From Ectocarpus siliculosus (taxonomy: Eukaryota; Sar; Phaeophyceae; Ectocarpales; Ectocarpaceae), in contig FN648886.1 of NCBI GenBank assembly GCA_000310025.1, forward strand, positions 1 to 24,735: a DNA stretch of 24,735 nucleotides, in the 5' to 3' direction. Shown here one piece after another: positions 3,201 through 24,735 of the stretch; the first letter of the stretch is position 1; the number at the start of each line of letters is the position of its first letter. Both the position numbers and the translations under genes were made by a program. The notes under the pieces are model-generated. The model was not told the origin of the DNA and did not search any database. It saw only the letters and a program-made list of their open reading frames with translations.

Positions 3201-6200
3201 ACAAGGAGGGGCCGGGAAACGCCTCCTGCACGGGTGCGAGCATCGCGGGGCACCGCGGTGTGAACGGGGGTGCCTTGTATGCGGTCGAGGGGCCCAAGCT
3301 GGAATGGGGGTGCGACCTGGTGAACAACTCCGCGCTCACGGGACCTGCCATGTGAGGTGTTTGCATGCGGGCGGAGTGGAGCTTGGTATCTCAGCTCACA
3401 CAAGTTTGCGTGCGTGTGTTTTTTTATTTTTTGCTTCGACGGCGCTAACCGTCTGACCCATGAAAAGACGTCAGTCTCAGTGCGGTTGAAAACGCAAAAC
3501 ACTTCTAAACGCCATTAACTAGGACTCCGTGAGGGCGGCAGGGGGGAAGCTAAGCCATTCTCCGGATTAAGAAAGACATAAACGGTAGTAGCAGAGGAAT
3601 ATGCACGTGTCGACCAAGGCTGTTACCCTGCACACGAGTTCATTTGGAGTGCTTTCACCACCATCCTCCTTGCTGTCACCACCATCACTCTCATCATCTT
3701 ATACAGCTATTTTCAGGCAGTTTTTTCTCTACCTAGCCCTCGTCGTTTTTTGTGGGGAAGGTCATCTGGCTCGAAGCTCTTGCTCTCTTCCACTCCATGC
3801 TTCCCTCCTCGATTGCTGTTTTGGTCGTTGTGTGTGTTTTTATTATTTGCTAATGTGTGTGGTTGTTTTTTAAGGTTATTGGGGGGGGGACGACACGACA
3901 GGCTATAGGCTGCCCTGGTCGACATACTATTCAGCATCGTGAATGAACCCAGATGAGTTTGTTAGACAAATGGTTGTAAAACAACAGGCGGTGCCGTTTC
4001 CATCTTCAATCCGGAGAATAGCGTGACGTCTCCTCACGCGACCGCAGATCATGGCCTGTAGGAGAATCGTGTTGCGTGTTTTTTCCGCACTGAGACTTGA
4101 CTGCGTATTTTCGTTGGTCAGCCGGGTTGTAGCGCGGTCGATGCTAATGGTAATATCGCACACCCACACACACACTACATGTTGACGTTTTTTAATCCCG
4201 CTGTATGCATTAGACTGACGTATTTTCATTGGCACGCCCGTTGACGCCGTCGATGTACATACAACCATTACCAAACCAAACCAAAACCACACTATCGAAC
4301 CAATTCCACCAACACAAAAAATCCAACCGAACCAAACCAAACCAAACCACACCGAACCAAACAGCTATGCTCGGGACAATGCGGAGGTGGTGCTTCGCGG
4401 GGTAGAGCTTTACGACAACTTCGTCGCTCGCGGGAGCGTCGTCTTCGTCGTTTCCAGCAACCTCACCACCTACCAGGTATTGCTGCTGCTGCTGCTGCTC
4501 CTGCTGCTGATGCTGCTGCTGTTGATATCGTTGGTTTAGATGTTGTTGTTGGTGTTGCTGCTGTTGCTGCTCCCCTTCCCAATAGTGACCCTTGCCATGG
4601 TTGCCATCTACACCGGACGTGCCTGAATGGGTGAAGGATTCATAGCAGTGAATATGTATGGGTGCGGTAGCTTCCCCAGAGGCCGAAAGAGAAGCGAAGG
4701 TAGACTCAAAGACCCTATTGCTTCGACTAGGCTATGTAGTTGTAGTGGCATTTTTCCAAAGATGGAAATCCCGATTGTACGCCTTTTACGTCCAAACCCA
4801 CATGGGCCGCGGGAGATCTGCGTACTTCGTTGGAAGAAGGCACACAAGCGCGCTCTTGGCCCTCAGTACTCGCCTCACAGAGACATGTTTGCGTTCAAAC
4901 CTTCGAGGCCGCGCAGTTGATTGCTGTGAGCCTCTTCGAGCCAAGTTTGGAGAGCTGGGGTGCGGTGTGTGTTCATCATGGTTGGTAAAATAGGAAATCC
5001 AATTTAGAATTCTGGACGATCCTGGTTGGAATTCCTCATGAATTCCCAGCTGGAATTGGTTGAAATTCCAAACTGGGAGTTTACTTCCAATCATTACATA
5101 CTCTGCGCACACTGCGCCCTAGCTGCCCAAACTTTGCTCCGAGAAGATCACAGTAGTGGAGCGTACAGCCTTATCGGTTAGACATCAAGGGTCTGTGAGG
5201 CGAGGACGAACTGACGAAACGCCTCGGTGCGCTCTGCTTGCTATCCAGTACACAGACCTCCTGCTTTTGGGGTTGGGTGGAGCATTTTCTGTCGGTCCCC
5301 CGGATTCCCATCTTGGAAACATTTCCATAACAACCAGCCTTAGAGAGTGAGAGACATGCAGCAGGCCACACCATCACCATGTAGTGTTGTTATGCCTTGG
5401 ACTAAGATACCATCTGGGCGGGTATATCTTTCTGGAATATCCCGACCACCTGCCCAGATTCCTAGTATTCCGACTTTAAGCAGGTAATAGTAATGGTTAC
5501 TAGCAGCAGCAAGCGATGCGCAAGCTTTCCCCCTTGCTCAGTGTTGCCTGGGAGTGCGCGATAGCGAGCGACTGAGAGGAAAAGGAAGGATAAGGAAGGA
5601 ATCAGACTGAAGAAGCGAAGCGGCTCCAACCTGCACACACTTGCCGGATTAGCTCCTCCACACTGAACCATCGTCACATCTCGTCACACTTGGCGTCGTC
5701 TTGGATTCGAACGTGAGTCCACAGTAGCATGTCCGTCAACACATATCACCAGCGTATCCCCCGGAGGCCCCGTAGACAGCATACTCTGCCGAGAACCCCG
5801 AACATTCCCCCCCCCTGCTCCGTACGAGATACGATCTACGAAATTCCCGTCACGACTATCATTGCCAGGAAAAAACGGCAATAAATCACGCTACCCATCC
5901 ACCATATTCCAATCCAAACAATCTCCCAAAAAAACAATGTTCTACGAAATCTGTCGATCTCCCAATAAAACATGTTCTACGAAATCTTTCAAATCTTCTG
6001 ATTGTGTCAAATTACAATCCCCTAAAAGGTCTGACAAATAACAAATGGCCCTCTTGAGAAAATGCTCTACCAAATTCTCAAGCAGTCCAACGCAGACAAC
6101 TACCCTTTGAAAAATACCAAGTATAGATTAACGTTATGTCGGAGTTGCGTCAGAACGGGGACGGGTAACGCCGGGAAAACGTGCCCCAATTACTCAGAGC

Positions 6201-9200
6201 AACTTCCTCAGATAGAAATGATGTTCAACTCAATGACCAGTTCAACAACCTTCGGAAGCACAAATGCTTCAACCATAACTTTTCGAAACATGCCAAACCC
6301 TTCCTCCAGTGTACAGACAGACATGCAAGTACAGTGTAGCAAAGCCCGCAGCAAACCGATCAAGTGCATCCCAAAGTTGTTCGGAAACAAGCGACTAGTA
6401 AAACCTTCATCAATACTGCCGCAGCTTCGATTCCTCCATCTCAGCTAATCCATCCAACGGCCCACCTGCGGGGACATTCCATATACATGCAACGAAAATC
6501 CCATTCAATTTTCAATTCCATGTCAGCTCCACAGGTAAAACGCGGAAAATGATCCACACATGAACTTCCAAACCCGATTTCAAAATACGTCTTGTTGTAC
6601 TGCGGCGGATAACATGGTATCACTCCCCCCCCCCTGATTTTCGATGGCAGTGCAACAATGAGGCGTGACTCCAAAACGTCCAGCTTGCCATCAGGTAAGA
6701 CTCCAAACCGAAACAAGAAACCAAAATATATCAAAGAAAGAACGCCACACGTCCAGCACTACCAGTCTGCCGTACAAATAAATCCGTGTCATCACACAAA
6801 TCGGTCTATTTCGGAAGGAAATTGGAAGTACTCCGCAAGGATTGACTCGTCGGGTACCGGTACATGGGAGGGACAGACAAACGGTGCGTGCCCCCCAACC
6901 TCTTACCCAGTAGGTCGCACGCCAAGCCAACGCCTACGTATACCCAGTACCACCTGAAAAAAAAAGCGGTAACTACCATAGAGAAGGTTGTCCTATAACA
7001 AAGAAGGTCAAACCAATGTGGAACAAACCCCACGCAGAAATATTCTACCACCGCCATTTGACATATGTTTCCTGGCAACAGCCCCCCTGCCGCAACATTA
7101 CGTTTGTTTCCACAAAAAACAATACAAAAAACCTACCAGGAACTTTCCTGCCAATTGGCGTGGAAATCGGCGTCATTGCAAGGTAAAACGCGAGTAGACA
7201 TCTCTACAGAACAGAACCAAAACAAAACGAAGTCTGAAATGCGCCAAGGAGGAATATTGATCTACACACACTCAAACAACGGTGAAGAGTGCAGCAGAGA
7301 CATCGGATGTGAACGCCAAAAACACCAAAACGACAGACTGCACAACACGAAAATAATACTTCGAAGTACGCACTAAACATCACGTGCTTTGGCGAGATCA
7401 AGACCCCAGCAGAAGTCGCGCTGCTTGCGGTCATTGTTGGACTCGCCCGACCCTCCGAACTCCCTTCTCCGCTTCATGGTCCTCCTGCCGCTGTTCCGGC
7501 CGCGAACACGAGCGCCCCCGCCGTCCCCACCACCACATCTTTCCACGGTCGGAAGGGGTGCCTAACCCCAGCACGGGCCCCACTCTCCCAGCCTTCAACC
7601 GGCACAGCGTCCTCGGGTCGAAGGGGCGCAGCAGTGCCCGAAACCGGGCCACATCCATCCTCTTTCCGTGGTCATTGCTAGTGCTGCTGCTGCTGCTGCT
7701 GCTAGTGCTGCTGGATCCGTCGACCAGGTCGTCCACCCCGGGATCGTTGGCGCTGCGCACCCCCGAACACAAGGTGCCGGGATCGAAAGGGTGCGTGGGT
7801 GCCCCCCTCTCGCCGCAGTCGCTGTCATCCCAGCAGTTACCAACCTCACCTGCGCACCAACCGCCATCATCGCTGCCGTCGTCGATGCCGTTGACCACCG
7901 CTTCTCCGTTGCACGTACTGACCGCCCCCCCAACCGATATGGGGGAGGAAACGTCACCACCGGTCGCCATCGTAGCGGCCGGTGCCGTCGCCGCGGTCGC
8001 GGGTGGTGCCGTCACCGATGTCGCCACTCCAGCCGCCGATACCGCCGCTGTAGCCACCTGCGCGGGCTCTCGAGCCGTTCTCCCCGCCAGCGTCGCGGAA
8101 ATAACAGTGTCACGGGGCACCGCCGACGTCGCCGCTGTAGCTGCTGCCGATGTTGCCGCTCCTGCCGGCACTGCGGGGACCCCGGCCATCCCCCCCGTCG
8201 CCTCCGAGGGGAGAACACTGCCGTCCGAGGTCGCCGCCGTCGCCGCTGGAGCTGCTGTCGATGCCGCCGCTCCTGCTGCCACTGCCGGGACTCCAGCCAT
8301 CCCCCCTACCGACCCCCAAGACGCCCATCTGCCGAAAGCCCTAGCTGTTGAAGCTAATGGTGCAGTGATCGGAGTACGTGGGCACCCCAGCTGGCGTAAT
8401 GATCTTGTGCGTTGTAGAGGAATGATCGTGGCCTGAGTTCAGGTAGAAGCACCGCTCCCCCTTGCTGTGTATCTTGGACGGGTGGTGTCGGTGGCGGAAG
8501 CCGGGCATCATGGACGGCAGGACTAGTCGGGTCCTTCTCCTGCCGTACAGCTTAACCTCTGGGTACCGCTTGTCTTCCTTGCTCACCTCCGCTGCGATGT
8601 TCAAAGAGTCGTTCACCCACGCGAAGGCCTCGGGCCAGATAGCACGGAAGGACCTATTGTGTTTGGGTGCGGCAGCTTCGTCAGAGGCCGAAAGAGAAAC
8701 GAAGGTCGACTCAAGACATTATTGCTTAGAGAGTGAGAGACATGCAGCAGGCCACACCGTCGCCATGTAGCGTATCCATCAACACATTTCATCCGCGTAT
8801 CCCCCGGAGGCCCCGTAGACAGTATACCCTGCCGAGCACCCCACACAGAATACTTTACCAAGTGTTGTAATATCGTTTGTGTGGGTTGTGTGTGACACCC
8901 AATATATCGGCATCTTGCTTTGTATGGCCGTCGGGCGATGTGTTCATGCACGTTCGCCGACTTCAACACATGTATAATGGAAATACCCGGCTGAAAACAC
9001 ACAGCTCGGTGTATGCATCGTGCTGCAACTGCACACAATTGTTATTGCCTCCCCCCCCCTGGTGTGAGCCATCGGGGTTGTACTGCATGTTTTTGCGTTT
9101 GTTTGTTTTTTTTGCGGCAACCATGAATGGTGGTCGAGTAGATTATGTTGTGCGGGGTTGAGAACCCTCACTCCGCACAAAGCGGATGATCGCACCACGT

Positions 9201-12200
9201 TGTGGTAAATTGGTCAAGCAGTGCTTATGGCTGTCTCTGGAAGTGGAAGCACCAGAAAATAAATTACTTCACTCGCAGCTGTCATCTGTTGCAAGGAAGT
9301 AAGCACACGAGGCCGAACACCCTTGGTAGGACGCAGCGCACCCTCCATGCGACTCGCCGAATACCTCACGGCGCTTCGCGCTTGGTGATGTGGGAGCCTG
9401 GTCCGGTGAGAACCCGGCGTGTTCCGTCCCGGATTTGTAGGGATGCGAGGTCAATGGTCGAACGACTACGGCATGCACGACTATGAGCCCCCGGATAGGC
9501 TTACTTTTGTTTGATGAATCTCTCAACCGTTTTTGTCGCACCTTTGTCTTAACTGTCTTGGGTGTTTCTTGTTTGTTGCAGACGGTTTTCACCGACACCG
9601 GGGGGTCTTCTGACCTGTCTGCGGTGCAAGCGGACGAGGACTCTAGCTACAAGGCTGAGGAGACTTCGTTCGTTGGCTTCGCCGGAGATGTAAGTTTTGT
9701 CGCAGGCTTGATAAAGTCGTTACTGTTGCTGTGGCTGCTGCTATTGCTTTTGTTGGTGCTGTTGTTGTTGTTGTGGTTGGTGATGTTTGTGGCGGTGTCG
9801 ATGTTATTGTCGATGATAGCGGTGGTAGCGGTGGTTGGTTAACATTGTCGTTGTCATTTTTCTAACTTTCTTCCGTTCAACCATGTTAGATTTCCGCGTG
9901 GGTCGCTGACAGGCGAGCATTCCCATTTTTCGGCCTCTGACAGGTCCCCATTTCTCCCGTCCTTTTCATTCAGACTGCATTTGATTCTCCGCGCGGCTCT
10001 CCCTTTGTCGGGGCGTTCTGTGCGCTCCCCCCTCTCGTGGCCTGCGCGCACACACGTCACGGTCGCTCCACAGCCGTTCTCTCACCTGCCACTCCGTCGC
10101 TCACGTCGTCTTCCGTTCGCGTGTAGTTCAGGCCGTGCTTTCAGACAGAGCAGTACACAGCAGGTGCTGCTTTTCAACTCATGCATGCGTGGCTAAATTC
10201 TGTGCTGTTTTGTGCATTTGTTTTTTTTTTTCCCGCGCCGTGGTGCACAAGAAGGAGTGTGACGACCAGCTTTTGATACCCACATGAATATGTAATGGCA
10301 GTACTATCCATTCTTGTGTATTAGAAAACATACCGGGTCGACAAGTAGGTCGTTGTCGGTGTATAGGGCCTGAATGTACAAGGTTATATCGTGGCCTTTC
10401 CAGCAATCAATGTAAAATGCGTCGATACATCTTCTCCTATCCTGCAGTTTACGAAGGTCTAGCGTCTCTATCTCTCTACCAAATATGCGCTCTTGCTCTC
10501 TGTCTGTAGACTACTTTTAGTGCAATATGGACGCCTACACGCACCACTCTGTCTCTAGCTCAGCTCACGTGCTGCGTCGATACCCAACAAGTGGTGGTGT
10601 ACTTCCTGGATGCACATACATGTGGTCTTTCCAGCACGCAACCGGTGCTAATGCCCCTTTCATCCTTTCTATATGTGGGTTTTTTCGTTATTCCGCAATA
10701 TGCATCGTCTACGTGAATGCATCAAATCGTGCTGAAACTCCTGTATGTAGTTATTATTGTTCTTTCCGTACTTTTTTACCGCCGGGTATGCAGGTAAGCC
10801 GGTCGCCCCGGTGGTCTAGTTGGTATCCTCGAAACCTTCTAGAGGTCAGCTCAGGGGTTCGAATCCCGGCGTAAGCGAGCTTTTCCTGCAAAGTGAGTTT
10901 TTCTCTCGCTTCCGCTCCTGGCCTAGTGGATAGCGCTAGTTCGTGTGTACACAGAGGGAAGAGAGTGCTGAACTCTTCTCGCATCAAAAATCGAAGGCAA
11001 CGTACCGCAGGAGGGGAGGGTAGAGAGGGGCCCTTCTGTGTGACCACGGGTTGGAGTAAACGGCACTAGTGCTGTGAGCGCTGATTTGAAGTGAAGACAA
11101 AAAAAGAAAAAAATGCATATGCAAATGTGCAATAATTGATGACGCTCTCCCACCCATCGTGAGGGAACGGGGGTGTCATGCATTTTGGTACAATCAGTAG
11201 TGTTGTATTATGCTGTCGTTCAAGCAACATGCAATGGATGCTCTGCCCCTTTCATCCTTTCCAGTGGCATTTGTTTACTCCGCTATTGAAGGCGGTAACC
11301 TTTGTAGACTACGAGGTAATTCGTTTTGCTGCTTTCTTTGTCATTCTGCGTAGTCCAGTTCTCATACACGGTGCATGGTGGAATAGAGTGTGGAATAGAG
11401 GTCCTTTCACACCCATCGTGAGGCAGAGGAGGTGGCATGCATTTCTTTGAAGAGCTGGATGTATGTCGTCGTTCAAAATTAAATAGACGGATGGGTGATG
11501 ATACGCCTTCGGGAATTATGTGTGGCTTTGTTTTCTTTCAGTGGCCCATCCAATTCAACAAAGTTATGTACCCCACCAGTGGGGTAACGGTGGTATGTTC
11601 CCCACCAACCGTGGCACCACCCAAGCTGTACCGTTTCGGCCTCATGGTGGGTCCAATGATAGCCCTGCAACGCAATAACACGCTCGTTGAAGTCCTGTGC
11701 TGATTGGAGTCTTGTAGAGCGAGATATAGCTGGTGGGGTGTTTTAAGCGTTAACCACCCCACCGGTGGGGTGAATAAGAGATTACCCCACCGATGGGGTG
11801 TTTAGCCGTGCCGATTTTTTTTTCCCATGGGAACACTTTAGATCATCAGCAGTTGCGTCATTTAGAATATTATACAAAAAAATGGGAGATATAGTCTATA
11901 TATGGATGGGTGTCAATCGTGCTAGAAGTATGGTGGTATTGCTTACACCTAAGACGTGCAGCAGCGGTTTCCACACTATATGCATAGGTGGCACTATTGT
12001 TTAAAGCGCACAGTGCAGTATCAAACAGTATTTTTGATGCGAGGTGGATGATTTGTTCAATGATATTTTGTAGGAATCGGTCGGGGTACAGCAGTGGTAC
12101 TTCGGGCATTCATTTCGTATATACGTGTCGAGCATCAGATCCGCGTTTTTCAGCACTCTATTGTGTCGGTACATGAAATTTCAATGACACACAATAACAA

Positions 12201-15200
12201 GCGTACCCAGTCAACAATTCCACGCCCACTATTTACCGTCTACTTTTCGCTTCACTCAGCGTGGCGGCGTGAGCCCCAAAGACGCCGCCTCAGCAAGCGG
12301 CGAGGTGATGAGAGAGAATGTTTTGCGAAATGTGGCCCAGGCGAGAGAGAAAGCGGTTACTTGCTGAGCACTCCAGGAAGGAGCGTTATTAAAGATCCTT
12401 CATGCAGTTCTCCGTGTCATTAATCATCCATCATCCATGCGGTTATTAAATAGTGTATCTTTTTTTGCTTCATTGAGGACTCCATGCTCAGCTTGCTCTT
12501 GAGGTTTCCTTTTCTTTCAGTTTTTGTGACCCGGTATCTCCGAACATAAACCTACGGCCGTTTAGTTTCTCCGAGCTCTTTCGCATTAACGCTCACCTGC
12601 CCACCAACAACCCATTACACGCCAAGAAGTGTTCACATGTCCAGCTCGTGGACTCCATGTTGACGCATCCCTTCGCACCCCTTCGGTGTCGCAACTGACT
12701 ACCGCACGTAATCAAGAGCAACGACAAGTAGACCAACAAGACGGCCATCCAAGAACGCCGATACAAGCGTCTTGCGGAACCCTTCTCTCAGCATGGCGGC
12801 GGAAGCCGCCAAAGAGCCTTGTACTGAAGTACGTCTTTGATTTCTTGTTAATTTTTGTTCTCGTCTCAGCGGCTGTTTCGGCGCCTCCAAAACCCTCCCA
12901 TAAAGTAGTTCCGTTCGAATGGAAACAGTACGAACCGTATCCGTGGTCTGTGTCAGGGATATTTACGTGTCGGTATGTAGGCAGTAGACAGTAGCCAAGT
13001 TTTATCCCTTCTGTGTTCGTTGTTTGCAACATCGACAGTACCAGTAGGCTAGCCTAAGCGCGTTAGGTCTGTACGCCGTAGAATGATGCCGGTATCAGCA
13101 ACCAGCGGTAGAGCAGCGACCACATACTGTGTGACCCGTTCCCGTACGGGACTATCCGCGAACGGTCAGGATAGTTCTCGGGGGACCCCAACATAGCCGG
13201 TTGACTATTCGGGGTCCCCAACAGTAGAACTTGTTTTTTGTTGTTTCTAGTGATCGAGAGCTGGCTCGCGCGCGCCTCTCTCTCACTCGCATCTTCTACC
13301 ATCAAAACCTAGCCTCGGAATCAGCCAGTAACAACGGCATTAACGACATCTTGTACCTCATCGTTCCCACGGTCAATGAGTTGCGCACAGCACTCAGGAA
13401 GGTACCACCTCTCGCTTATACCGGGCTTGCCTTGCAATCTCGGCGAGCACCTGCGGTAAGCTTTCCAACGAGGTCAAACCCGACGTACTACCGCCGCAAG
13501 CTTTTACCAAGAGTCTGAGGCTACAATACTCAACAGAAAGCATGTGATGGTCTATGTAATGGAATTCTCGGCTGAGAACGGCAAGGGGCAGAGCGGGTCA
13601 GGGGGCTATTATATGGTACCTGGTAGGACGTAGTATGGTATAGTATAACCTACAGTCGACCCCGCTTTAAAAACACACCTCGTTTTCGTTAATTATTAGT
13701 TTTTTTTCGCGGGGAGTTCCTTTGAGGTTTCCGGGGACAGCATCGCACCATCCCCGGGGTCAATGGAGGCGAGCTAACATACGTCAAAATATGAGACTTG
13801 ACAAGCATGATCACAGCATATGAAAAACGGCGGGCAACGTCGTGGAATCGTCCCGTACTTGTTACACTCAAAATCAACAGCCTCGTCGACGGTGGTACGC
13901 TATGAACACATCACCACTGGTTCCTCTGCGCCGTATTCCAGTAGTGCACAACAAGGACACAGAATAGTATTACTTCTTGCAACAGAAATCGCGAATCTTG
14001 GCTTGCATCTCCCCTCACCCCTTGACTTGAGATTCTTAATAGGTGAACGAATTCACAGCCAGCGATCGAACGAAGGTTGTCAAGAACGGGCCGGCAGACA
14101 AGAAACGTCAAGGTCGGGGCAAGGTTCAACCTCTGATTTTGGCTCAACAAAACGGCCGAGTCCGCCCCCCTTGTTGTTAAATTATTGATATTGTGTTAAT
14201 TGCGGGTGCGGGTTCCGAGTTTTCGCGTATTTCTCATCATCCCTTCCCTGCCCTTCTACAAATAGGACCGACCGAAGCTGCTCGAGAAGAGAGAAGAGAG
14301 TGCACCTCAGCCTCTGTGAGCGATGATGTAATGGAGCACTCAGGCCTACGATCGTTTTCCCCCCTCGTTCGAAAGGAATCTCGCATACCCACACACACGG
14401 CTGCACAGGCAGACCTCGCGGAGCACCATTTTTTTCGAGGGACCCGTGGAGTATAAATAGTTTCCCCACCGTGTTTTCCATCCCCGGAGCACAACGTTTC
14501 TGAAAAAATGTGTCTAAAACCTAGGGAGTATCCTTATGCCCAGTGTCTGTAAAGCGGGGACGTCTGTGTTATCAAAAGGTGTTTGGTTGAACCAGCAGCT
14601 AGCTGTCACAAGTTTTGCTTCACCCCATTTCGACCATTTCACTCGAGTTACATTTTTTCCATGCTTTGTCGTCCAGTGGCCATATAGAGGTGGTGGGGCT
14701 TCAACCGAATTCCACTCGTCTGCACTTCTTCGTTGTTTTTTCCCAGCAAAGGCGGATTTATACTAATCTGGGGTTTGGTTGTGTGTAGTGAAGGTTAATT
14801 TTTTCTCATCGCACTTGATCACTTTTGGCACTAGGTGGATGCTCTTAAGGGCAAATGCACTCGTCACTCACGTATCTTCGTTCGTCGCGCATATCCGTGC
14901 TCGATTCACTTGATTTGGTTTTGCCTCGCAGGCGGTGGTCTTTAGCGAAGGGACTCTGTATCTCGACGATTGCAACTTCAGCGGCAGCTCTGCCTCGGTG
15001 CTGGTCTACTCGGAAGGGAATTCCTCCACCGTCGTGCGGAATGCCGTCCTGGGGGACTACAACTGTAAGAATTGACTATCCGCAGAGCCCCCCCAAAACG
15101 AATATTCCAAAAATATCACAGGGAAATCCCCTCGCCTTCCTTCTGTTTGTGTGATCCCGGCTGGTACTCATGATGTAGACTAGCCTCCAACGGGGGGACG

Positions 15201-18200
15201 AAAACATTCACACATTCACACACTCAACACATACACCATTATTACCCAATCGAAAATTGGAAATTGGCATGACATTTTGGAAGTACGTGTAAAATCCTAA
15301 AAGTGGGCCTGCTCGTTGATGAACTTGAACGTCAGGCTGCATCGACGGTGAATACGTTCATTCCCACGGGCCGTTCGTCGCTGCAAGTGAATGGCACGTA
15401 TGTGTGACTACAAACGACGAAAGAAACCGATTCAATTAGCCCTTCATGCAACCCATGAAAATGATGAAAACATTAGTTTGACCGAGTAAGCCGTTGATGA
15501 AACATATGAAACCGTTCATTAACTCAGATTTCGACGTCCCCCAGGCTGCATTGGTGTATCAGATTGATTCTAACCGCCCGCTCGTCGCTGAACGTAAACA
15601 TCACGTGCGTAATAACTACACGAGCGATAAATGAAACCGATTCATTCAGCCTTTCACAACACTGATGTTCATCAACAAATCAGATTTGGGGATCTCGGAG
15701 AGTGCTTTGGCGGACGGATCGCTGCTCATCGAAGTGAACGTGGGCGTCACCTACCTGTGACTACAAGCCTATATTGAAACCGTTTATGACACCATTTATA
15801 ATGAAACAAGGTAGATTCGGACGTCCGATTGCTGCTGAACATGGGCGTCAACCGTGACGAACAACGATGAAATCGCTTGTGGAACCGATCAATGAAACTG
15901 TTCATAGCGAATCAGATTTCCACGGCCCACTCGTTGCGGCATGTGAATGTCACGCGTGGCTACGAACGATGAAAGGAACCAATTCATTCAACCTTTTATG
16001 AAACCGATGAAGTCGTCCCTTCAAACGATGAAAAACATCGTTGGTGAAACCGAAGAAGCCGTTCATTCAAGTCAGAGTTCGACGTCGTCGGGCCTAACGA
16101 TGGCGAATGACATTTCTACGGCCCACTCGCTGATCAACATTGACGAGCTTCAGTTGTGACTACAGACGATGAAAGAAGCCGTTGACCGTTCATAAAACCG
16201 ATAGAACCTTTCGTTAGTCCGATAATACCGATCGTGAAACCGTTGATGAAAACCGTTAACAATAGAAATCATATTTGGATGTTGCTGAGGCTGCTTTAAC
16301 TGCGAATGAGATCTCTACGCCCCGCTCGCTTTTGAGCGTGGACGATAGTCAGTTGTGACTATGAACGAAAGACCGATTCAGCCTTTCGTAAAACCGTTGA
16401 AATTATCAGCGGAACCTAATGCTTCGTCCATACTGTCAAATTTCGACGTCCACGGGGCCGTCGACAGCCAATGAGATCTTTACGGCCGGCGCGCTGACGA
16501 ACGTGAACGAGCGCCATGTGTGACAAAACCCGATGAAACCGTTGACGAAACCGTTCTTGATAATGAAACCGATGAAACCGTTCATGCAGCCGTCTTTCTT
16601 AAAATCGTTGTTCACGAACCCTTCAGATTTCGACGTGGCGGAGGCGGCTTCGACCGCGAACGTGATCCCTACGGCCCACTCGCTGATCAATGTGAATGTC
16701 ACCTGCGATGGATGGATGCCGTTCTCGTCGACCCCTCCCTGCAGCGAGGGGTCCCCGTGTATCGACGGAGACCTCGGGGTGTACTGCCAGTGCTACACGC
16801 GGGAGTCTTCAATTGCAAAGGTTCGTGCCTTCGTGTCTTGGTTGTTGTCGGTGTTTTTTGTCCGCGCAATATCAGACGGAATCGGGTGCGAGCATCATGC
16901 TGCATTGGCTACCATAGCGGCGACAGCGATGGCAGCCGACAGATAAAACCTTGGTGTCGGCTTTTGGTACTTGACGTTCCGTTGCAGGGTTAGTAAGCGT
17001 TTGCTCTAAACAGTAGTCCACACGTACAATTGTATTGTAGGTATGTATGTTAAGTAAAAGAGTAAGTACTTTCCGTATTTGTACGTGTATATGGTAAGTA
17101 AAACAGTCAAGTATTCATGTATTTGTAGAACTACTATTTATGAAGCACTTTTTGTGTGCATGGTGAATGGAGTTCCATGTCTGTCTGTCCGCACGCACTC
17201 GTGAGAAATTGTGAAAATGTTTTTTTTTCATGTCTGAGAAGTGGAGCTGTTGCCCCTGCACGTACGTACGTGTCATTTTTCGTGCTCCAAGAACACCACA
17301 CGCTCAAACCCGCCCCCGCCACTCTTCCCTACAGGGTTCCCCCTCCGAGACGTGCGTCACGGGAGACCCGGGGCTGCTTAGCCTCACAGTGCTGTCGGAA
17401 CCCGCCGACGCCGTCTTCCCTACCATGCTCGACGGAGAACTCCTCCTTACCCTTAATGACGATGAAACGGTCACCACCAGCAGCAGTGCAGGGGGCTCCG
17501 GGGTAGCCTTGTCGGCTGGGGCGGGAACGGAAGGCGGCGTGATTTGGAACGTTTCGGCGTTGCTGTTGTCTTCGGAGGAAGGGTTGATGGAGTGGACGGT
17601 ATTTCCGTCGACCGGTCTGCTGCTCCCGGGGCGGAGGTGAGGGAGGGTGTTTGGTGTTGTTGCTTTGTTGTAGTCTGCCGGGTGATACCCTCTAGTGTTG
17701 CAACAAGACGGTCGGGGTAGCAAGGTGATTGTCGTTGTTGTTTTCATGAGACGTGCGTTGCTCGGTGTCATTCTTTCCGCGCCACGTTGACCCACGTCCA
17801 CCCCCGTACACTTCACGCGAGCTACATTTCGCGCGACCGCACGCTAGACCACGCGGTCCACCGCCTCCCAAGGATGCAAATTTGAACATTACCTTAACTG
17901 GGCCTGCCTACAAGGTGCCCATTCCCTATGCTAAACCCTATATTGTCGATGTTGGGGTACCCCACAGATTGGATTGCTCCGAGCTCGCGCACACTAAGAG
18001 CTGTACGGAACCCTAACCCTTCCTTCCGTACCCCCTGCCCGACAGCATCACACTCCACGTGGTGACCCTCCCCAGCGAAGACTTCAACGGAGAGGCCACC
18101 GTGAGCTTCCAGGCGGACGGGATGTCTCCTCCCGCTTCTCTTGTCGCCAAGGCCGCCGCTGCTGTTGTCGTCCAGACCACTTCATTGGCGGATGATGGGG

Positions 18201-21200
18201 AGGGGGAGATAGCCGCTGCTTCCTTCGACGTGTCCTTCGTCCATTGCGAAAGCGGGACATACTGGAACAACTCGTGCGATCCGGAAGGCGACTCCGTCTC
18301 TTGCTGCGAGCTGTGCACGGATGTCGGTGGAGACGAAGATGTGAGTGCATTGCCGCAGGAGAGCGCGATACCATCGTACCCACGAAGGTTTTCTTGTTCT
18401 CCCTCGCCCGCTCTTTCGTGTTCCGTCTGTGTGAATTGTGATATTGCCTACCCGCGATTGTTTTCTTTTTTTCTCGCTTTCTTTCTTTTTGTATTGTGAC
18501 ATGCGAAGTGCTTTTTGTTTGACAACAACGGCATCTATCCTGGGCGGTGAACCGCAGTGATGCGGGTCTCCACCGGTCGGTGTTGCACGGAACAGGAGGT
18601 AAAATACCCGTAAAGAACGTGAGACGGTGCAAGAGATATGAAGGCGACAACAACGGCAACCCATTTCGCCGCCACTCTGAGCCGCTACCGGTGGGTAGCA
18701 GACTGCCACCACCTGCATTTCACCACCCTTGAACGTTGACCGATCTTGCCCTTTGCTTGTTATCGTGTGGTTCGTTCAATTTCTGCGGTGAAATCAAACT
18801 TGGAAGGGGGTGAACTGCGAGATTGACGGCGCGACGACCCGAACCCTCCCCGTCCAGCCGGGGTACTGGCGAGCTTCGCTGGATTCCGACTACATCCGCC
18901 AATGCTTCAACGAGGTAAGGAAATTAGGTGTGTGGCGGGCAAATAATAAAATGTTGCGTGAACACCTGTCGTCCAAAAACCCCAAAGATTTGTCGTCCAA
19001 GCCCTAAAAATATAGTCGTCCAATAAAAACAAAATTGATCGTCCAAACCCCCCCAAAAATATATTTTTGTTATGATGAAATATGAAACGCACATATGTAT
19101 TATTAATTCAGGCTCAATTTTGTACGAACAACGTTGAAGTAGGGGTGAGACACTTTGCTCCAACGGTGGGTACTACGTAAACTCTACCACGTGTTCATTG
19201 TTACCCGAACTCGATGATCATGCGACGAAATGAGAAATTGAGCCCGTATTCCTTGGCAGGAAGGGGGATGTTTGCTACTCTTAAAGACCTTGGGGGGGGT
19301 CTCGTGGAGAGCGTGCAAGCCGTGTGGTGTCAGGTTCGCTCAACTCGTGTGGTGTCTTTCATTTCCTCGCCCACTATAATACTGATTGCCGCAGTAAACA
19401 GACGTCTCAGGTCTACCCGGATATTGAGCGAGGCCCGAACCTGTACATGATCAAAACCCTCTCTCCCTTGGTCCCAGGTAGTTTTAACGTTCCCTGCAGT
19501 ATCTCTAACCCCCCCCCCCGGCTCTTGCGCCTCCCCCGATGTTTGCCATCGGGGTTTGGGTTTTCGCCGCTTGGCAACGACGTTGTAAAACAAGCCCCCC
19601 ACTCGTTGTTTGCCATCGGGATTGGGCTTTCGTCGCTTGGCAACGACGTTGTAAAAGAAGCCAATTCACTTCGTGAACTCGGCAACCAGGTTACCGTTCT
19701 TTTTTTTTACCTCGTTTTTTTTTTTGGCGGTAATCATAGTGGTGGTCGAGTAGATCATGTTGTGCGGGGTCGAGAACCCTCACTCCGCGCAACGGGGGAT
19801 GATTGCACCACGTTGTGTTAAAATGGTCAAGCTTCCTCGAGGCAGTTACACAGTGCTTACAACTGTCTCTGGAAGTGAAAGCACCAGAAAATAAATTAAG
19901 TCATACGTAGCTGTCATCCGTACGCAAGGAAGTAAGCACAAGATGCCGAACACCCTTGGCAGGATGAAGCTCACCCTTCATGCGACTCGCCAAATACCTC
20001 ACGGCGCTTCGCGCTTGGTGATGTGAGAGCCTGGTCCGGTGAGAACCCGGCGTGCTCCGTCCCGGCTTTGTAGGGATGCGAGGTCAATGGTCAAACGACT
20101 ACGGCATGCACGACTATGAGTACACCCCCCCCCCCCCCGGCTCTTGCTCGAACCATGACGATGCACCACGTTGCAGGACGCCTGCCAAGGTGGAAGAATC
20201 GTCGCCAGCGAGCAGGAGTACTGCAACGCCGGCTACGAGGGGCCCCGTGAGTGCATAGTTTATCGTAGCGTATAATTGATGAAGAATAATTGCGATACCT
20301 TGCTGTCGATCCCTTTTTCCCATAATATGCGTTTTTACGTGTGGGGGGGATACTGTAAGTATTCCCTCCTTTTCCGTCTGTGACGACGAGGGACCCATAA
20401 GCAAGCGAGTGTCAGGCACAGTTCTGTGTCGTTTCGGATCCGAATATGCCTGAAGGTAACTTTAACAAACGCCGGGGAGATTGATATTCTAAACCGAAGT
20501 CGACTTTTCACGCAGAACCAGCTGTAATTTGTTTTTGTTCAAGTGGCAATAAACACCCGGCGGCAGCGGCGTTTGCGGTTGCTCCTGTTTCATGGTCCGA
20601 CGGGGGGAGTGAATGTTGTTTACTCTCGCCCTTCCCCCACCTCTCGATTTGATGTATTCTGCCGTCTGCGTGTCTTCGGTGTGTTCGTCCGTTTCCCTTT
20701 ACAGAGTGCGCCGTTTGTGCCTCGGGGTACGGCAGGGGGGTGGCCAACGCGTGCCACCTGTGCACGGCTAGCTTCAAGGGGGGCATGTACTTTGTTCTTG
20801 GTGTTACGGCACTGCTGACGTTCTTCGTGGCCGCACTGCTAGCGGTGTACCTGGTGAGAGAAAGAAGATTATAGTAGCGATGAGGGCCTTAATTTCGTTC
20901 GGCGGACGTTCATAGTTCGGAAGACAGTGAATGACGTTGCCGAGTCGTTTGTCTCCGGAAATCACAGAAAGGAGTGAAATTACGCACCCGTCAGCGGTGT
21001 TCCGGACAACCCCCCCCCCTATTACTACTCCTAGCTAATGACCTGCGAAACCGCTACAGCCTGGTACAATAAACTAGAAATGTTGCCGAACCTCGCGATT
21101 CCCAACTAGAGATTTACTCTCATGTCGGGGATATCCGTCTGTGTGCCTTATGGCAAATGAGAGCACACCTAGCTGCAACAGCACTCTAGTGTGTGCCTCT

Positions 21201-24119: not shown

Positions 24120-24170
24120 CGGCCCAGGCTAGGCTTCACAAGGATGAACCAGACGGGGGGTGGGGGGGGG

Positions 24171-24735
24171 GTCGTGCATGCCGTAGTCGTTTGACCATTG
24201 ACCTCGCATCCCTACAAAGCCGGGACGGAGCATGCCGGGTTCTCACCGGACCAGGCTCTCACATCACCAAGCGCGAAGCGCCGTGAGGTATTCGGCGAGT
24301 CGCATGAAGGGTGCGCTGCATCCTGCTAAGGGTGTTCCGCATCTTGTGCTTACTTCCTTGCGTACGGATGACAGCTGCGTATGACTGAATTGTTTTTCTG
24401 GTGCTTTCACTTCCAGAGACATGTGTAACTGCCTCGAGGAAGCTTGATCATTTTAACACAACGTGGTGCAATCATCCCCCGTTGCGCGGAGTGAGGGTTC
24501 TCGACCCCGCACAACATGATCTACTCGACCACCATCATGGTTACCGCCAAAAAGAAAACAAAGGTAAACAAAAACGGTAACCTGGTTGCCGAGTTCACGA
24601 AGTGAATTGGCTTGTTTTACAACGTCGCTGCCAAGCGACGACAAACCCAATCCCGATGGCAAACACCGAGGGGGCGGCTTGTTTTACAACGTCGTTGCCA
24701 AGCGACGAAAACCCAACCCCGATGGCAAACACCGG
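24171..24735 (-). mobile_element. Dispersed element R, copy 3 (inverted, cut by window edge)
   Basis: The reverse complement follows copy 2 closely, from CATGCACGAC at one end through GAGAACCCTCACTCCGC, CACGGCGCTTCGCGCTTGG and both 5' subrepeats (24677-24731 and 24609-24664), and continues past the window edge. A run of G on the plus strand (24155-24171), meaning C after the element's 3' end, repeats the C-run context of copies 1 and 2. Confidence 0.82.

Follow-up and report, generated by a model that had tools for sequence, protein, structure and literature searches.

Intron 8 of a many-exon, surface-protein-like gene contains eight degenerate units and a stub, all related to the splice acceptor of exon 9 and its first 27 codons. 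The units lie head to tail and adjoin exon 9, and the array very probably arose by repeated tandem duplication of part of this exon within the intron, with exon 9 as the source, followed by neutral decay. The window, i.e., the whole stretch of DNA analyzed here (24,735 nucleotides), is contig C325 (1–24735) of a genome of 189.5 Mb in 492 contigs. The genome is probably that of a brown alga, as the EsV-1-7 cysteine-rich motif family exceeded its cut-off at all 150 places scored (from 880 candidates) and at none in 14 control genomes. An array in the same intron is present in two paralogues on contig C15 (L001 and L002). Three further paralogues (L005–L007) are located on contig C33.

Layout and detection of the unit array

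The array spans 15306–16544 within intron 8. The features are as follows (a slash marks a splice junction).

14932–15064, + strand: exon 8 (beta-helix part), ending AACT/gtaag in phase 1; conserved in L001, L002, and L005–L007
15065–16626, + strand: intron 8, 1,562 nt by sequence; ~405–437 nt by hand count in the three C33 paralogues
15306–15334, + strand: unit stub; nhmmer E 0.0055 (window model) and 0.006 (L004 model)
15334–15431, + strand: unit 1, acceptor part gone; both nhmmer models; placed in the unit tree with L002_4258 and L001_4673 (support 0.68 and 0.71)
15502–15641, + strand: unit 2, CAG/ATTTCGACGT retained, junction 15527/15528; read-through stop after 35 codons; both nhmmer models
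15657–15785, + strand: unit 3, CAG retained, junction 15683/15684; read-through stop after 25 codons; both nhmmer models
15811–15872, + strand: unit 4, short and weak; nhmmer E 1.1e-5; no clear partner in the unit tree
15888–15983, + strand: unit 5, deletion from the acceptor to about codon 10; both nhmmer models and unit tree
16048–16184, + strand: unit 6, AG retained, junction 16075/16076; immediate TAG in the exon 8 frame; nhmmer
16246–16373, + strand: unit 7, AG lost (AT), identical state in L001; nhmmer and acceptor inspection
16413–16544, + strand: unit 8, AG lost (AA), identical state in L001; nhmmer and acceptor inspection
16627–16820, + strand: exon 9, likely source copy, the first ~81 nt matching the units; protein 95% and 94% identical on C15 and 47–50% on C33; third-position bias against the unit consensus

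An nhmmer model built from seven window seed units, exon 9 included, returned the eight units (starting at 15334, 15502, 15657, 15811, 15888, 16048, 16246, and 16413), the stub at 15306, and exon 9. Because this search is circular, two further checks were made. When the acceptor and 27 codons of exon 9 alone were used as the query against intron 8, six matches with scores of 18–31 were obtained; the best score among 500 dinucleotide shuffles was 16, that of the reverse complement was 9, and none of the 500 shuffles reached the top real match. The units at 15811 and 16246 (two of the eight) were missed by this query. In the second check, a model made from nine L004 units on contig C21 recovered the full set (eight units, stub, and exon 9) with E values from 1.2e-18 to 0.006, and its best match on the reversed window had an E value of 0.83. 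This check is only partly independent because the window model had served to find the L004 units, whose rows come from the joint alignment. Tandem Repeats Finder at its default threshold reported nothing for the array. The eight degenerate units described in an earlier note on this DNA were therefore recovered with two nhmmer models, and the lack of significant alignment to the exon 9 start, which the note had named as the outcome that would speak against it, was not what we found, as all six exon 9 matches scored above the best of the 500 shuffles.

The similarity between the units and exon 9 covers the acceptor and ~81 nt, after which each unit continues into a TGTGACTACAAACGATGAAACCG-type spacer. 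The homology to the acceptor and exon start noted earlier thus stands, with a length of ~81 nt instead of ~75 bp. It ends at about codon 27–28 of the 65-codon exon, so that ~81 of 194 nt are matched. A similar-looking CAG at 15913–15915 is an internal part of the deleted unit and not an acceptor copy. The array is therefore an intron-borne homologue of one part of an exon that belongs to this gene. When 13 approximate exon pieces were compared with the window at E 1e-3, only exon 9 matched elsewhere (three of its units at that threshold).

Encoded protein

In Pfam searches, the joined exon pieces matched Beta_helix at 18.4 bits (cut-off 25.9) and NosD at 13 bits, and the first part of the gene product may thus resemble right-handed beta-helix proteins, only weakly. 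Exon 9 had no match in Pfam, and no LRR match was obtained for the gene. Further downstream lies one more feature.

20653–20868, + strand: exon stretch with a hydrophobic segment (Kyte–Doolittle 2.61 over 19 residues)

This segment is possibly membrane-spanning. The whole stretch is matched in L002, and the matches in L006 and L007 stop before the hydrophobic part. In Pfam, the stretch matched JAMP at 17.7 bits, under the cut-off of 25.

Splice signals and reading frames

Five units of the window are alignable at the acceptor; three retain the AG (before 15528, 15684, and 16076) and two have lost it (before 16273 and 16440). The acceptor part is missing from the other three. In L001, three of six units retain the AG; L002 has three of four, or three of five when a weak match at 5114 is counted; and L004 has three of nine. 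These counts were made partly by eye. The earlier note had listed acceptors at 15527 and 15683, where AG is indeed present, and had missed the third at 16076; it had also placed ATTTCGACGT after the AG of the unit at 15684, where the sequence is actually ATTTGGGGAT. Its statement that the AG is lost at 16271 and 16438 was borne out (AT before 16273 and AA before 16440). The same letters are found at both of these sites in L001, and the AG of unit 3 is altered there to TCGG.

If exon 8 were spliced to the three kept acceptors of the window, stops would follow after 35, 25, and 0 codons. One kept acceptor in L002 would read 61 codons before a stop. In L001, the last unit has lost its AG, yet from 5722 (reversed locus) its frame is open through the spacer into exon 9. 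The consensus of 32 units is open over 27 codons (YFDVAEAASTANQIPTARSLMNVNVTC) and continues as YFDVAEAASTANQIPTARSLMNVNVTCDYKR before a TGA, which falls after 31 codons, i.e., four codons past codon 27. A counterpart of the exon 9 donor is absent from the repeated module, and the end of the consensus, CCT/GTGACT, would be a weak donor at best. Since the module has no exon 9 donor and its consensus runs into TGA after 31 codons, the copies were probably never functional as coding exons. Early stops would be the expected outcome of any mis-splicing into the window units. None of the units is a complete exon copy with acceptor and donor. Relative to 81 nt, 26 of the 32 units differ in length by a non-multiple of three, a rough count as some matches end short.

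Tests for constraint

The window and L001 arrays (15495–16600) are identical at 853 of 1052 positions (81.1%), with 85 gap columns; these counts omit 15306–15494, where the global alignment is poor (0.35–0.50). Identity is 355/432 (82.2%) in the six exon-like parts, 477/593 (80.4%) in the spacers, with unit 4 counted as spacer, and 378/455 (83.1%) in intron 9, as compared with 73/81 and 105/112 in exon 9 and 287/302 in exon 10. The exon-like parts do not differ from the spacers (p 0.52), nor the array from intron 9 (p 0.38), whereas the exon-like parts differ from exon 9 (p 9e-4). No codon periodicity was found in seven window–L001 unit pairs (differences 28/163, 28/162, and 30/160 at codon positions 1, 2, and 3; p 0.92). 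In the corresponding control, exons 8–10 of the window and L001 show 11, 9, and 20 differences of 209 by codon position; the control is small, with p values of 0.06 (L001) and 0.01 (L002). Across all units, deviations from the consensus number 186/741, 151/733, and 184/733 by codon position (p 0.064, the rows being non-independent), and the slightly fewer deviations at position 2 could hint at a short coding phase. The window and L002 arrays are identical at 641 of 989 positions with 249 gap columns, and their introns 9 at 448 of 494. As the identity of the L002 array is far under that of intron 9, the L002 array has undergone faster turnover or has another history. No sign of structured RNA was obtained in one fold of 15610–16600 (z −1.03; 3 of 20 shuffles were as stable or more). 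Between the window and L001, constraint on the arrays is not detectable, and they appear to have decayed at about the rate of an ordinary intron.

These data bear on the possibility, raised in the earlier note, that the units are decoys or poison exons. The kept acceptors would then be spliced at times, leading to an early stop and to a product that is truncated, secreted or degraded and lacks the hydrophobic segment. The three AG acceptors kept in the window, the stops that follow them, and the possibly membrane-spanning segment downstream fit such a role, which nevertheless gains no support and seems improbable, as the exon-like parts are no better conserved than the spacers or intron 9 and acceptors have been lost freely: the AG of unit 3 is altered in L001, those of units 7 and 8 are gone in both genes. 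The RNA fold is also unremarkable. A related possibility, hardly better placed and perhaps slightly less so, is that all three array-bearing genes contain leaky decoys, a fraction of transcripts ending in a unit and freeing the beta-helix part without a membrane anchor. What would be kept in this case is a number of weak acceptors and no particular one, and site-by-site conservation tests would therefore miss them.

The units could also derive from complete alternative exons (mutually exclusive or cassette) that were once arrayed here and have since decayed. We consider this quite unlikely. The open 27-codon consensus is in its favor, but the homology stops near codon 27–28 of a 65-codon exon, the exon 9 donor has no counterpart beyond the weak CCT/GTGACT, the consensus frame runs into TGA, and codon periodicity between the window and L001 is absent. 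The frame, splice sites, and conservation that characterize mutually exclusive or cassette exons are not kept in the units. By contrast, the duplication of an acceptor and exon-start module, as the earlier note had proposed, agrees with the identity and codon-position tests, in which exon 9 is the only window copy with coding constraint.

Paralogous loci and genome-wide occurrence

DNA searches of the same genome were performed with two array halves, the C21 array, and the spacer pattern, and the resulting counts are lower bounds. Units are borne by the window, L001 (C15 ~4340k), and L002 (C15 ~4375k), and unit pieces occur at three further places: C15 ~4401k (L003, one unit), C21 ~1689k (L004, nine units), and C15 ~3404k (L008, ~129 nt). 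Matches were found at at least five loci with the array halves and likewise at at least five with the C21 array; the spacer pattern gave at least 12 matches, all inside those unit-bearing loci. As far as these searches reach, the units do not match an unrelated genome-wide satellite, the other outcome that the earlier note had named against its reading. A genome-wide satellite or transposon was rejected as the array and the GATGAAACCG words were found at only a few loci (lower bounds), and an assembly artefact was rejected as two other assembled genes contain arrays that have diverged but whose units match.

Protein searches with exons 8, 9, and 10 gave six loci that have all three, namely the window, L001, L002, and L005–L007. 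Weaker matches were obtained for exon 8 on C7 (one) and C6 (four), for exon 9 on C5, C11, and the C21 units, and for exon 10 on C8 and C23. Units are present at C21 ~1689k and C15 ~4401k, and the listed matches to exons 8 and 10 include neither place. The nine units of L004 occupy ~4080–5440 of the reversed locus, and the search for inverted repeats around them gave one imperfect 25-nt pair. The L008 piece (3354–3481, in a locus that is partly N) is 88% like the C21 array and borders a frame that resembles reverse transcriptase by eye; Pfam gave no match for this frame at E 0.1.

Age of the array and direction of copying

The unit tree was built only from units of at least 20 bits, and many of its deep nodes are poorly supported. 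Six of the eight window units are each sister to one L001 unit (support 0.91–0.97). A seventh (15334) falls in the small clade with one L002 and one L001 unit given in the feature list, and the eighth (15811) lies beside a C21 unit at 0.41. Of the seven L002 units, four are placed with a window unit and three are not. The three exon 9 copies cluster (0.85); the single L003 unit (reversed locus, 5080–5186) neighbors them rather than the array units (0.83). Because six of the eight window units pair directly with an L001 unit, the array is older at least than the split of the window and L001 genes, and it is very likely older than the split of the window gene and L002. The tree gives no sign of homogenisation of the units since the gene split.

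All three C33 paralogues have exon 9 behind the same phase-1 intron, with intron 8 borders AAYT/GTGAG ... CAG/ACRAAACCATC, and no unit match was found in this intron at E 1 (three of three). Compared with the consensus of 32 other units, exon 9 of the window shows 1, 2, and 10 differences per 27 at codon positions 1, 2, and 3 (third position versus the rest, p 6e-4); the values are 2, 1, and 9 for L001 and 3, 4, and 11 for L002. Since the C33 genes have exon 9 without an array, and since the differences concentrate at the third position, exon 9 is an old coding sequence and the units likely derive from it. It is possible that the C33 genes once had an array that vanished completely, which would count against this argument. 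The reverse direction, in which the exon 9 start was made from a pre-existing repeat array by exonisation, would fit the occurrence of C21 units without recognized exons 8 or 10 and is very unlikely given the homologous exon start of the array-free C33 paralogues and the long coding constraint indicated by the third-position bias.

Proposed origin and relation to known systems

At the level of sequence comparison, the homology of the units, the direction of copying, and the shared ancestry of the arrays are established. Here, we propose that the duplicated segment ran from the intron tail (GATGAAACCGTT-type words) through the acceptor to codon 27 of exon 9. The short spacer repeats may have mediated unequal exchange or slippage that produced the copies. 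The array was very likely in place when the window gene diverged from its two C15 paralogues and then decayed like ordinary intron, and splicing presumably skips the units and joins exon 9.

An intronic minisatellite is a tandem array at few loci with short repeated words. The window array is likewise tandem, located at few loci, and has short repeated words in its spacers, but what is repeated comprises a splice acceptor and coding sequence, and Tandem Repeats Finder was silent. In tandem exon duplication, exon segments are duplicated within a gene, with unannotated copies in introns (PMC9013439). The head-to-tail copying within one gene and the intronic position of copies are alike; here, only the acceptor half without a donor is copied, and all eight copies look decayed. 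Unannotated or degenerate (pseudo) exons are detected as exon–intron matches by Exonize (PMC12343006). The window units are such matches too and differ in that ~81 of 194 nt are matched and the multi-copy array is common to three paralogues. The brown-algal ROCO genes also contain many tandem copies of a short coding segment; shuffling of whole 72-bp phase-2 LRR exons, splice variants, and sites under positive selection are reported for them (PMC11378527), whereas the window units are phase-1 half exons of ~81 nt with no sign of selection and no LRR. In a literature search of partial coverage, an array of this kind was not found described.

The array alone shows no new mechanism. It is a clear case of a splice-acceptor half-exon multiplied and then decaying, and the paralogues include both genes that bear the array and genes that lack it. 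It offers a natural series for how the spliceosome disregards sequences closely resembling a genuine acceptor that lies only a few hundred bases off, and it cautions against scoring such units as exons in gene finding.

Mosaic ancestry along the gene

At informative sites, the ratio of positions shared by the window with L001 to those shared with L002 changes along the gene. It leans to L001 in the array (217:61), the intron 7 tail (41:24), and the last spacer (9:1), and is near even in exon 8 (5:5), exon 9 (7:5), and 8863–8961 (9:8). It leans to L002 upstream at 3921–4480 (22:54), 9557–9702 (2:9), and 12855–12949 (5:8), and downstream in intron 9 (20:52), exon 10 (5:12), 17640–18990 (32:150), and 19139–19243 (7:12). 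Ancestry thus switches within 3921–19243 of the window: the array sides with L001, and intron 9, 17640–18990, and 3921–4480 side with L002. Either of two processes could account for the switches, namely gene conversion whose limits fall close to intron 8, or a more rapid turnover of the L002 array together with its poorer alignment. A dispersed repeat is represented in the window by related stretches at 9090–9487, 19530–20138, and 24155–24735, and it is present in L002, L004, and L008 too.
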